Positions 6,817-30,031 of a DNA stretch of 64,000 nt are shown here, in pieces. The stretch lies in the NCBI RefSeq assembly GCF_030410135.1, contig NZ_JAUGQQ010000001.1, positions 124,001-188,000 of the forward strand, in the 5' to 3' direction. A program made the position numbers and the translations under genes. Under the pieces are notes generated by a model. It was not told where the DNA came from. It worked only from the letters and a program-made list of their open reading frames with translations, and did not search any database. Numbering within the stretch: the stretch's first letter is position 1; the number at the start of each line of letters is the position of its first letter. The stretch is from Aequorivita aurantiaca. Lineage in GTDB: Bacteria > Bacteroidota > Bacteroidia > Flavobacteriales > Flavobacteriaceae.

Positions 6817-7563
6817 TTATCCTTTAATGCTAGCCTTCAAATATTCGCGATTCATTCGGGCGATGTTTTCAAGTGAAATACCTTTTGGACACTCAATTTC
6901 GCAGGCGCCGGTGTTACTACAGTTTCCGAAACCTTCTTTGTCCATTTGAGCTACCATATTTAAAACTCGTTCTGTAGCCTCGATTCTTCCCTGGGGAAGC
7001 AAGGCAAATTGGCTAACCTTCGCGGAAGTGAACAACATTGCGCTAGCATTTTTGCACGCTGCCACGCACGCGCCGCATCCAATACATGTTGCGGAATTGA
7101 AAGATTCATCGGCATCATGTTTGTTTACGGGAATCGCGTTTGCATCAATCGTATTTCCGGAAGTATTCACCGAAATAAACCCACCCGCTTGCTGAATTCT
7201 ATCAAAAGAACTTCTGTCAACAACCAAATCCTTTATTACCGGAAATGCCTTCGCACGGAATGGCTCAATAACAATGGTGTCGCCATCGTTGAACATTCGC
7301 ATATGTAATTGACATGTTGTGATTAGTCTATCGGGGCCGTGAGGTTCACCGTTGATTTGCAGTGAGCAAGTACCGCAAATTCCCTCGCGGCAATCGTGGT
7401 CAAAAACTACGGGTTCCTCGCCTTTGTTTATTAAACCTTCGTTCAATACGTCAAGCATTTCCAAGAAAGACATATCTCCCTCTACTCCCTCAAGTGGATA
7501 GGTTTTAAATTCTCCCTTTGCTTTGCTATCTTTCTGTCTCCAGATTTTAAGTGTTAACTTCAT
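6817..7563 (-). CDS. sdhB: Succinate dehydrogenase/fumarate reductase iron-sulfur subunit
   Basis: Electron-transfer subunit of complex II, passing electrons from the flavoprotein to membrane quinone. The 248-residue product has the N-terminal [2Fe-2S] cysteine loop (CREGICGTC, then Cys in LITTC) and two C-terminal cysteine clusters ([11 protein letters not shown] and [13 protein letters not shown]) for the [4Fe-4S] and [3Fe-4S] centres. It lies downstream of sdhA but is separated from it by an inserted four-helix-bundle gene between inverted repeats. A terminator follows. The two-other-subunit layout (SdhC, SdhA, SdhB) fits the menaquinone-linked type B complex of Bacteroidota. Confidence 0.96.
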
Positions 7564-7572
7564 TATTTAAAA

Positions 7573-7612
7573 GTTACTTAGTTATTGTGTTACTGAGTTA
7601 TTCAGTTATTTT
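7573..7612 (+). repeat. Octamer tandem array, left end of inverted pair
   Basis: Five consecutive 8-base units of form GTTAYTNN (GTTACTTA, GTTATTGT, GTTACTGA, GTTATTCA, GTTATTTT). The reverse complement of a 23-base segment here (7580-7602) recurs at 8025-8047 with a single mismatch. The array ends nine bases before the sdhB start codon. Confidence 0.85.
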
Positions 7613-7627
7613 TATTCCTGCAAATAA

Positions 7628-8005
7628 TTATTGAATCTTCGCAGTTTGTAAATATTTAATATATCCATTCAAAATTAACAATGTTCTATCATGGATTTTT
7701 CTTAATTCATTTAACAGCTCTTCAGAAATATACTTTTCATCAAAAGCTATTATTCCATGATCCAACGTTTCATTCAAAGATCCTCTCGCCATTCTACAGA
7801 ACTGAATATTTTCTTGAAAATGAAATCTTCCAAATCCTTCTGCAATGTTATTTCCTACAGACCTTGAGGCTCTCCTTATCTGGGATGCCAAAGCAAATTT
7901 TTCAATCACTGGCAATTTTGAAATTATTTCATTCGCTACAAAGTTTCTAAGTACTCGGGCTTGTTTCCAGCATTCCAATTCTTCAAAAGACTGAAAACTT
8001 CCCAT
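7628..8005 (-). CDS. Four-helix-bundle protein, S23/23S rRNA intervening-sequence family
   Basis: A 125-residue protein with the family signature: an N-terminal FEELECWKQARVLRNFV helix, LPVIEKFALASQIRRASRSVGNNIAEGFGR, and an Arg/Glu helix region with ARGSLNETLDHGI. Proteins of this family (TIGR02436-like) form pentameric helical bundles and include relatives of the Avd accessory proteins of diversity-generating retroelements; no enzymatic function is known. The ATG at 8005 is preceded by little recognisable ribosome-binding sequence. It lies inside the sdh operon in the same direction, enclosed by inverted octamer arrays, and has no evident connection with succinate oxidation. No reverse transcriptase or variable-repeat region is nearby. 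Confidence 0.88.
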   Translation of the reverse strand: MGSFQSFEELECWKQARVLRNFVANEIISKLPVIEKFALASQIRRASRSVGNNIAEGFGRFHFQENIQFCRMARGSLNETLDHGIIAFDEKYISEELLNELRKIHDRTLLILNGYIKYLQTAKIQ

Positions 8006-8014
8006 AATCGCTTA

Positions 8015-8046
8015 AATAATAACCAATAACTCAGTAACCCAATAAC
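8015..8046 (-). repeat. Octamer tandem array, right end of inverted pair
   Basis: Read on the minus strand this is GTTATTGG, GTTACTGA, GTTATTG and GTTATTAT, the same unit as the array at 7573-7612 in opposite orientation. It starts immediately after the sdhA stop codon (8047-8049). Confidence 0.82.
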
Positions 8047-10050
8047 TTATTTATAACTCCTCGATTTAACCTCAATATTCTCATACTCCAATTCTTCCTT
8101 GTGAAGTATCGAATTTCCGGGATCTCCGGTGTATTCCCATGCAGCTACGTACATAAAGTTTTCATCGTCGCGTAACGCTTCCCCTTCCTCGGTTTGGTAT
8201 TCCTCACGGAAATGGCCACCGCAACTTTCGTTTCTGTGAAGTGCATCTTTTGCAAACAATTCACCCAATTCAAGGAAATCTGCAACGCGCGTTGCTTTTT
8301 CAAGCTCTGCGTTCATTTCGTACATTGTGCCGGGAATTTTTACGTCTTTCCAAAATTCTTCGCGAAGCGCTTTTATTTCTGACATTGCCGATTTTAAATC
8401 CTCGGCATTACGCGCCATACCGCATTTGTCCCACATTATATGTCCCAATTTTTTGTGGAAATAATCTACGGAATGCTTCCCGTTATTGTTCACTAATTTC
8501 TCCAAAAGTTGGCGGACGTTGTTCTCGGCTTCGTCAAATTCTTTTGAATCCGTTGGAATTTTCCCTGTTTTGATGTCTTTTGAAAGATAATCACCGATAG
8601 TGTATGGCAATACGAAATACCCATCTGCCAACCCTTGCATCAATGCCGAAGCCCCCAAACGGTTGGCGCCGTGGTCACTGAAATTGGCTTCTCCCGTAAC
8701 GTAACACCCCGGAATTGTGGACTCCAAATTATAATCCACCCAAACACCGCCCATAGTGTAATGAACCGCGGGGTAAATCATCATCGGGGTTTCGTATGGA
8801 TTTTCATCCACAATTTTTTCATACATCTGGAACAGGTTTCCGTATTTGTTTTCGATTACCTGTGTCCCCAATTTTTTTATTTCTTCAGCACTCGGATTGT
8901 GATTTCCGTGAATTGCCGCCTGTTCTTTTCCATAGCGCTGTATTGCCGAAGCAAAATCCAAGTACACGGCTTGGCCTGTTTTATTCACTCCAAAACCGGC
9001 ATCGCATCTTTCCTTTGCGGCACGAGAGGCCACATCACGCGGAACCAGATTTCCGTAGGATGGATACCTTCTTTCCAAATAGTAATCACGCTCGTCCGCC
9101 GAAAGGTCGTTCGGTTTTTTCTTTCCATTCCGAATTGCCTCCGCATCTTCCTTTTTCTTCGGAACCCAAATTCTTCCATCGTTTCTTAGCGATTCAGACA
9201 TCAAAGTCAATTTACTTTGGTGATCGCCGGAAACGGGAATACAGGTTGGGTGAATCTGTGTGTAGCAAGGATTTGCAAAATATGCGCCTCTTTTATGAAT
9301 TTTCCATGACGCGGTAACGTTGCTTCCCATAGCGTTTGTGGAAAGGAAGAAAACATTTCCATAACCGCCCGAAGCAATAACCACGGCGTGTGCGGAATGT
9401 CTTTCCAATTTTCCGGTAACCATATCGCGGGCAATAATTCCTCTTGCTTTTCCGTCAACGATTACCAAATCCAACATTTCGTGGCGGTTGTAAGGGGTTA
9501 TTTTTCCACGGTTAATCTGTCGATTCATTGCGGAATATGCACCTAAAAGCAATTGTTGCCCCGTTTGTCCCTTTGCATAAAATGTACGCGAAACCAAAAC
9601 CCCACCAAAAGAACGGTTATCCAAATAACCGCCGTATTCCCGGGCAAAGGGAACGCCCTGCGCCACGCATTGATCTATAATATTTGCGGAAACCTCAGCG
9701 AGACGGTACACATTCGCTTCGCGCGAACGATAATCGCCACCTTTTATGGTATCGTAAAATAATCTGTAGTTTGAATCGCCATCGCCTTGGTAGTTTTTCG
9801 CGGCGTTGATACCTCCCTGCGCGGCAATGGAGTGCGCGCGGCGTGGAGAATCTTGATAACAAAAAGTTTTTACGTTGTAACCTAACTCGGCAAGGGTTGC
9901 GGCGGCACTTCCGCCGGCAAGGCCCGTACCCACCATAATAACATCAATGTTACGTTTGTTGGCCGGGTTAACGAGGTTAATCTCGTTTTTATGTTTTGTC
10001 CACTTATCGGCTAAGGGTCCTTTTGGGATTTTGGAATCTAATTTCGACAT
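8047..10050 (-). CDS. sdhA: Succinate dehydrogenase/fumarate reductase flavoprotein subunit
   Basis: Catalytic subunit that oxidises succinate to fumarate with covalently bound FAD. The 667-residue product has the dinucleotide-binding motif [17 protein letters not shown] near residue 42, the flavinylation-site segment [16 protein letters not shown], the substrate-site segment [11 protein letters not shown] and the capping-domain/active-site motif [17 protein letters not shown]. Length is typical of the long Bacteroidota type B enzyme. It begins 11 bases after sdhC and is followed directly by an inverted-repeat array rather than by sdhB. Confidence 0.97.
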
Positions 10051-15177: not shown

Positions 15178-15567
15178 ATGTTTACTCTAACTCAAATAAA
15201 ATCCGCCCACAACAAAGTAAAATCAGGCGCCGACTTTCCTGCCTATATCCAAGAACTTAAAAAACTTGGGATTACCTCTTATGAAACCTTTGTTGCCGAT
15301 GGACACACGGTTTATTATGGCGCCAATGACCATACAGCAATCTCAGCATCCAAATATGAGACGTTACAGATTTCGGAAACTTCGTATAAAGAAAAGTTTA
15401 TAACCGACCTAAAAGCTCACCAAGCTGCCAAAACCGATTATCCTACTTTCTGTAGCGATGCAGCCAAAGCGGGCGTCGAGAAATGGGCGGTGTACATGGA
15501 GGCTATGACTTGTACTTATTTTGATGGGGATGGGGAGGTGATGTTGGTTGAGCAGATTCCGCAATAA
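15178..15567 (+). CDS. DUF1398 family protein
   Basis: A 129-residue protein matching the DUF1398 pattern (start MFTLTQIKSAHNKVKSGADFP, then LGITSYETFVADGHTVYYG, and the C-terminal KWAVYMEAMTCTYFDGDG). Family members are sometimes labelled phage envelope protein, but no function is established. It is the last gene of the accessory patch and is followed by a period-7 repeat tract. Confidence 0.82.
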   Translation: MFTLTQIKSAHNKVKSGADFPAYIQELKKLGITSYETFVADGHTVYYGANDHTAISASKYETLQISETSYKEKFITDLKAHQAAKTDYPTFCSDAAKAGVEKWAVYMEAMTCTYFDGDGEVMLVEQIPQ

Positions 15568-15593
15568 TCTAGATTTATTGTTTTGTTTTGTTT

Positions 15594-15628
15594 TGTGGTT
15601 TGTGGTTTGTGGTTTGTGGTTTGTGGTT
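15594..15628 (+). repeat. Perfect heptamer tandem array (TGTGGTT, five copies)
   Basis: Five exact copies of TGTGGTT in a row, preceded by a TTTTG pentamer run from about 15578. It lies at the right edge of the DUF1801-cupin-DUF1398 patch, mirroring the period-7 array at 13732-13773 on the left. Confidence 0.9.
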
Positions 15629-29952: not shown

Positions 29953-29953
29953 A

Positions 29954-30024
29954 CAATTCAAAATTCAAAATTTAAATTTCGAGGTAAGCTTGAATTCTGA
30001 ATTTTGAATTCTGAATTCTGAATT
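29954..30024. repeat. Inverted period-7 arrays between sufC and sufD
   Basis: Left part (29954-29980): AAAATTC-type heptamers (CAATTCA, AAATTCA, AAATTTA). Right part (29992-30024): GAATTCT, GAATTTT, GAATTCT, GAATTCT, GAATT. The left arm read in reverse complement is the same GAATTNT unit, so the two arms are inverted around about 11 bases. The unit starts one base after the sufC stop and ends seven bases before the sufD ATG, with no gene inside. In RNA it could fold into a long AU-rich hairpin. Confidence 0.8.
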
Positions 30025-30031
30025 GAAAAAA

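Follow-up and report, generated by a model that had tools for sequence, protein, structure and literature searches.

The window analyzed here is a stretch of 64,000 nt of the Aequorivita aurantiaca genome (contig NZ_JAUGQQ010000001.1, positions 124,001 to 188,000 of the forward strand). Between sdhA and sdhB, it holds a small gene that encodes a four-helix-bundle (FHB) protein and is enclosed by two arrays of short words in inverted orientation to each other. A second locus in the window, between sufC and sufD, has inverted arrays and no such gene. The features are the following:

6817..7563, minus strand: sdhB, the downstream host gene, with orthologs in 27/28 congeners.
7573..7612, plus strand: downstream arm, five GTTAYTNN octamers, inverted with respect to the upstream arm.
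7628..8005, minus strand: FHB gene, 125 aa, assigned to PF05635 / TIGR02436 by profile matches, with PDB relative 2gsc.
8015..8046, minus strand: upstream arm of the FHB gene, degenerate 7-8 nt words GTTATTGG/GTTACTGA, directly 3' of the sdhA stop codon.
8047..10050, minus strand: sdhA, the upstream host gene, assigned from its own sequence and from its neighbors, sdhB and a cytochrome-b-like subunit.
29953..30031, plus strand: solo form between sufC and sufD, with inverted heptamer arrays AATTCAA / GAATTCT and no FHB gene.

The FHB open reading frame belongs to PF05635 (E value of 1.2e-28) and also matched TIGR02436; it lies on the same strand (minus) as both flanking genes and is read along with the host operon. 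Together, the arrays and the gene span from the sdhA stop codon to 9 nt before the sdhB ATG, and the gene coordinates confirm the exact fit that had been noted from the sequence. The best inverted pair at the locus is 23 nt long with 96% complementarity, its two halves lying 422 nt apart. The array at 8015-8046 is less regular than that at 7573-7612, with one spacing of 7 nt and the others of 8 nt, and the word TAACTGA is present in the downstream arm. A three-unit GTTAYTNN pattern has 10 matches in the 3.09-Mb genome, four of them at this locus, compared with three for the reversed control.

Flank-to-flank inverted scores were compared with a null made of flanks from different junctions, for which the 95th percentile is 30 and the 99th percentile is 40. 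The FHB gene scored 53, the highest of the 49 genes in the window and above the 99th percentile. The original prediction of five GTTAYTNN units at 7573-7612, inverted units at 8015-8046, and one gene inside is confirmed. The 95th percentile was exceeded by 5/49 window genes, two of which border an array, namely the FHB gene itself and sufD, beside the solo array. Among the 38 intergenic regions of the 64-kb window, one contains a solo inverted pair. A direct, non-inverted TTTGTGG array of ∼5 perfect copies is also present at 15587-15628, in the intergenic region that follows an ORF at 15178-15567.

A protein search identified eight FHB genes in the host genome, for which the PF05635 profile gave twelve matches. 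Each of the eight is located between protein genes, and almost every one has inverted, degenerate tandem words on both sides, mostly locus-specific: GTTAYTNN, GTTGATG, TTGGATTG, CGTGAATC, GGCATTAG, GGAATAT, and GGTTGTCG, with one locus (L005) being weak. GTTAYTNN was considered as a signature of the element; the genome search did reveal further FHB genes with arrays, as anticipated, but each has its own word, and the signature is abandoned in favor of locus-specific words. Across the genus, PF05635 matches number 5 to 21 per genome in all 28 genomes. Flanks were readable for 136 FHB genes; 96 of these score above the 95th percentile of the mismatched-flank null, and 45 score above its 99th percentile. 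The arms have a period of 7 nt, with a match of 0.50 at lag 7 and 0.46 at lag 14 (0.31 when shuffled); an 8-nt period is found in a minority of arms, including those of the window copy, which are mainly 8 nt. They are polar, with more G than C in the upstream arm of 123/132 elements (67 versus 3 groups), and they usually start within a few bases of the stop codon of the upstream gene.

No conserved end sequence common to the copies was seen, the word differing at each locus, nor was a target-site duplication. No known RNA family was matched: a hit to IMES-1 had an E value of 0.06, far below the cut-off for that family. A strict common word grammar was considered and rejected, given that the words share only a weak bias across elements, roughly RNNNTKA (2.90 versus 2.63, sd 0.10, for letter-permuted words). 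A noticeable share of the PF05635 FHB genes contain internal stop codons, as expected of elements that are gained and then decay. At four loci (L134, L147, L184, and L073), near-perfect word runs occur on one side only (e.g., CCTGCAA more than 10 times), which suggests recent slippage in one arm.

The layout of an FHB gene within inverted arrays is seen across Bacteroidota (90/118 genomes with PF05635) and in several cyanobacterial plasmid loci (scores of 66 for L255, 59 for L257, and 34 for L256; L252 and L254 are without it). It was also found in a set of 80 named genomes that includes Clostridia, Atribacterota, Omnitrophota, Verrucomicrobia, Desulfobacterota, and Chlorobiota, with 44/78 above the 95th percentile and a match of 0.48 at lag 7. 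On a Nostoc plasmid, both flanking genes lie on the strand opposite to that of the FHB gene with its arms. The pattern around this conserved family is real and broad, and it points to a little-recognized class of mobile element.

The FHB protein is under strong purifying selection, with a median dN/dS of 0.08 over 138 same-junction pairs. Residues Q42, S49, N53, E56, and E79 (window numbering) are 98 to 100% conserved, and R45, G57, R60, and S76 are 83 to 91% conserved. By sequence, the only natural PDB relative is 2gsc, described as a ring of five four-helix bundles in a passage of PMC4990558 that cites the structure.

The nearest known kind of element is the 23S rRNA intervening sequence. 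In Coxiella and Leptospira, these sequences carry an S23p/IVP reading frame within stem-forming terminal inverted repeats, and they are sporadic and horizontally transferred (PMC4990558). The window element likewise encodes a protein of the PF05635 (S23p/IVP) family and has its reading frame between complementary ends. However, it is situated between sdhA and sdhB, two protein genes, and not inside an rRNA helix; its arms are short-word arrays that change from copy to copy, and solo forms consisting of arms alone exist. Because it lacks the defining rRNA location, we do not file it as an intervening sequence, although it is built like one.

Cyanobacteria, Beggiatoaceae, and Bacteroidetes contain scattered heptamer repeats that were recognized decades ago. 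PMC4679880 describes tandem 7-nt words, including TAACTGA, that are mostly intergenic and occur in Cyanobacteria (STRR), Beggiatoaceae, and a few Bacteroidetes. The arrays described here have the tandem 7-nt unit in common with them as a family, the window copy being mainly 8 nt. Unlike those repeats, which consist of one or two fixed words, the eight host FHB loci mostly have a different word each, and the arrays form an inverted pair around an FHB gene, whereas the searched text of the heptamer reports connects those words with no protein gene. The P6b stem of Nostoc trnL closely parallels the solo hairpins: it is formed by complementary heptamers of two word classes and keeps its structure when the class switches (PMC4476775). 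REP/RAYT and MITE elements are also short intergenic palindromic units, but in contrast to REP/RAYT and IS200/IS605-derived MITE, the units described here have no conserved terminal sequence, and no Y1 transposase was detected in the host genome. Within the open-access papers searched, we found no report linking PF05635 genes to inverted heptamer arrays.

The contents of the junctions vary between congeners. At sdhA-sdhB, 8/27 congener genomes are empty, with 6 to 8 nt between the two genes; the proposed comparison with relatives thus recovered true empty sites, in agreement with the prediction of a small unit that enters operon junctions and leaves the genes intact. In the other congeners, the junction is filled by an FHB gene that is either related (GTTATTG, GTTAAG, or GTTAATT words) or unrelated (AGCGAAG words), by gene-free arrays, by an inverted-repeat insert of 92-93 nt, or by FHB genes that have decayed. 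The 92-93 nt insert (L031, L033, L041, and L042) has the inverted ends ATGAAATGCCC / GGGCATTTCAT and is unlike the word arrays. At sufC-sufD, congeners have a short remnant, solo inverted arrays, or an FHB gene with GTTTCTG arrays. At fadB-fadA, an inverted-repeat hairpin of at least 70 nt is present in 26/26 readable genomes in at least eight sequence types, and about half of these hairpins hold an FHB gene, from four lineages. On a 27-genome tree built from six flanking genes, in which several forks are unresolved and to which junction states were assigned by eye, the minimum numbers of state changes for the three junctions are 14, 12, and 21.

Four fadB-fadA loci (L220, L222, L228, and L230) have a GC-rich hairpin of ∼110 nt, CCTCCCC...GGGGGAG, in place of the word arrays, and this form too has been exchanged between species. 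Elsewhere in Bacteroidota, in other genera or families, FHB genes also occupy a junction that resembles fadB-fadA (L157, L167, and the J0 loci), and such a junction may be a long-lived hot spot.

Several same-junction pairs combine a low synonymous divergence of the element with a high divergence of the genes on either side. With dS calculated by NG86, for which values above 1 are saturated and mean only 'large', the element had a dS of 0.08 versus 3.19 and 1.30 for the flanks at fad (G027/G008), of 0.05 versus 1.13 and 1.55 (G002/G019) and 0.10 versus 1.01 and 1.78 (G002/G026) at suf, and of 0.18 versus 1.77 and 1.12 at sdh (G023/G019). The FHB gene has a lower dS than its upstream flank in 6/7, 12/21, and 25/39 same-junction pairs, and no gap was present in many others, so that both descent and transfer occur. 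The window copy has no close partner, the nearest being G026 with an FHB dS of 2.28 versus 1.38/2.00 for the flanks (all saturated); low element and high flank divergence was observed at related loci and not for the window copy itself. Over the 485 nt of the junction, L193 and L197 have 99% identity, and synonymous differences set in from about a dozen bases before the stop codon on one side and in the first codons of the next gene on the other. The limits of the exchanged tracts fall within conserved coding sequence, at distances of a few to ∼50 nt from the junction. Judged by these sequence comparisons, the unit is mobile in the sense of being polymorphic and horizontally exchanged.

Hairpins that lack an FHB gene have been exchanged in the same way: a solo hairpin at fad is 99% identical between species with a flank dS of about 1, and the 92-93 nt insert at sdh is up to 96% identical with a flank dS above 3 (saturated). 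Same-junction exchange therefore does not need the FHB protein, and exchange alone is no proof that the FHB unit is a mobile element. The protein had been predicted to help movement; for this step it is dispensable, and protein-driven homing as the sole cause of same-site transfer is weakened by the transfer of FHB-free hairpins. Most simply, same-junction exchange is host homologous recombination.

The same process could be extended to account for the whole pattern, with junction alleles, FHB-containing or not, being swapped by homologous recombination in the conserved flanking genes and with the FHB gene as a passenger that does not transpose. This would be a case of horizontal regulatory transfer, in which non-homologous intergenic alleles are swapped among relatives and the flanks are unaffected. 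The term itself is used in PMC5890482. At related loci, the intergenic allele is indeed less diverged than both flanks, and the swapping of FHB-free hairpins, the ends of the exchanged tracts within conserved coding sequence, and the largely junction-specific FHB lineages all speak for this account. However, the alleles described here carry a selected gene, and one architecture extends over unrelated junctions and phyla. Recombination leaves unexplained the FHB genes with arms in dozens of unrelated junctions, the presence at a single junction of at least two mutually unrelated FHB lineages, and the words common to sister FHBs at different junctions, and we consider it rather unlikely to be the full explanation.

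The FHB phylogeny mostly tracks the junction, which indicates that ectopic moves are uncommon, and no very recent jump to a new junction was caught among the junctions compared. We infer that such moves have taken place because two or more unrelated FHB lineages are found in one junction, because sister FHB lineages at fadB-fadA and paaA-paaB (∼72% identical) have the same word GTATTGAG, and because the similarity of arms across junctions is tied to FHB identity. Over all different-junction pairs, arm similarity is seen only at FHB identities of at least 65%, with a mean of 33.5 (n = 48 pairs) versus 21 to 24. Several of these 48 pairs come from neighbors within a single operon, such as fadB-fadA and the junction after it, or possibly from a junction that clustering divided in two (J7/J21). 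We lean toward the reading that the window unit is one copy of a widespread hairpin-armed element, mostly subject to allelic exchange, that occasionally jumps together with its arms. By inference, the unit is likely to be a self-moving element.

We propose that the gene and its arms have occasionally moved together to a new operon junction. Insertion next to a stop codon would leave the genes there unharmed. After arrival, the unit would spread among relatives mainly via host homologous recombination in the conserved flanking genes, and loss of the FHB gene would leave solo hairpins. Both arms change in step, as would be expected if they were rewritten through slippage of the 7-nt unit and arm-to-arm copying within the hairpin, a process for which quasipalindrome mutation is the background. 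In the most speculative step of this proposal, the ring-shaped FHB protein would bind the periodic arms of its own element, as DNA or as RNA.

A second alternative is selection on the arrays at the mRNA level: they would form a hairpin that determines how stable the operon transcript is or how it is processed, for example as an RNase III site, with the FHB gene located in the loop and possibly regulating the hairpin. The hairpin of at least 70 nt at all 26 readable fadB-fadA junctions, kept despite many sequence replacements, would be expected under such selection, and RNase III cleaves the rRNA intervening sequences that encode the same protein (PMC4990558). However, eight congeners have no hairpin at sdhA-sdhB, and the FHB gene and arms of the Nostoc plasmid run opposite to both neighbors. 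Selection on an mRNA stem was also looked for as an excess of G-U pairs, which was not found: G-U did not exceed A-C mismatches on the transcript strand (134 versus 166), a weak test given that the arrays align in several registers and that register slippage limits it. We regard this explanation as unlikely.

An ordinary operon gene, passed on vertically and only incidentally accompanied by simple repeats, would be in keeping with the strong purifying selection and the junction-specific FHB lineages. Empty sites, unrelated replacements, and element-limited transfer stand against it, as does the finding that inverted arrays are far more common around FHB genes than around other window genes. 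The original prediction had named, as evidence against itself, a fixed operon member with the same gene and arrays in all relatives; congeners instead are empty or differently filled at sdhA-sdhB, and a fixed operon gene is rejected. Vertical inheritance is refuted at this junction by the congener states and is very improbable as a general account.

Least probable, and largely refuted, is a kinship with diversity-generating retroelements, in which the unit would itself be a retroelement and its FHB protein would play the part of Avd alongside a reverse transcriptase: PF05635 structurally resembles Avd (PMC10053308) and the arms are hypervariable, but RVT_1 has no match in the host genome (99.96% complete) or in 18 further congeners, giving 19/28 genomes searched without it, and all 28 carry FHB genes. 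A Y1 transposase was likewise not detected in the host genome (G000) or in G006, the latter with 17 FHB matches. Neither of these two types, the ones looked for, is therefore required for maintenance, which agrees with the original prediction in that neither need be present; mobility in trans through either enzyme is not supported.

Read as a mobile, hairpin-armed element, the window unit is a case in which mobility without conserved end sequences can be tested. PF05635 genes are common and conserved, and their inverted, polar, 7-nt-periodic arms, in which the sequence can vary freely, are a concrete handle on their role. The architecture may also explain orphan heptamer repeats in several phyla. 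It is possible, and we suggest it tentatively, that a single class takes in the heptamer repeats of Cyanobacteria, Beggiatoaceae, and Bacteroidetes, the heptamer stems of trnL P6b, and the intervening sequences of rRNA, whether as arms, as remnants, or as full members. This class would be defined by an FHB gene traveling in a hairpin whose heptamer word rewrites itself, and it would lack both a transposase and fixed ends.

In a Picosynechococcus plasmid (L256, 1492-1848), an FHB gene with inverted GGAGATA-type arrays lies between cas10 and cmr3 of a type III-B CRISPR operon. Insertions of this kind may explain the appearance of PF05635 as a partner in CRISPR or immunity operons.
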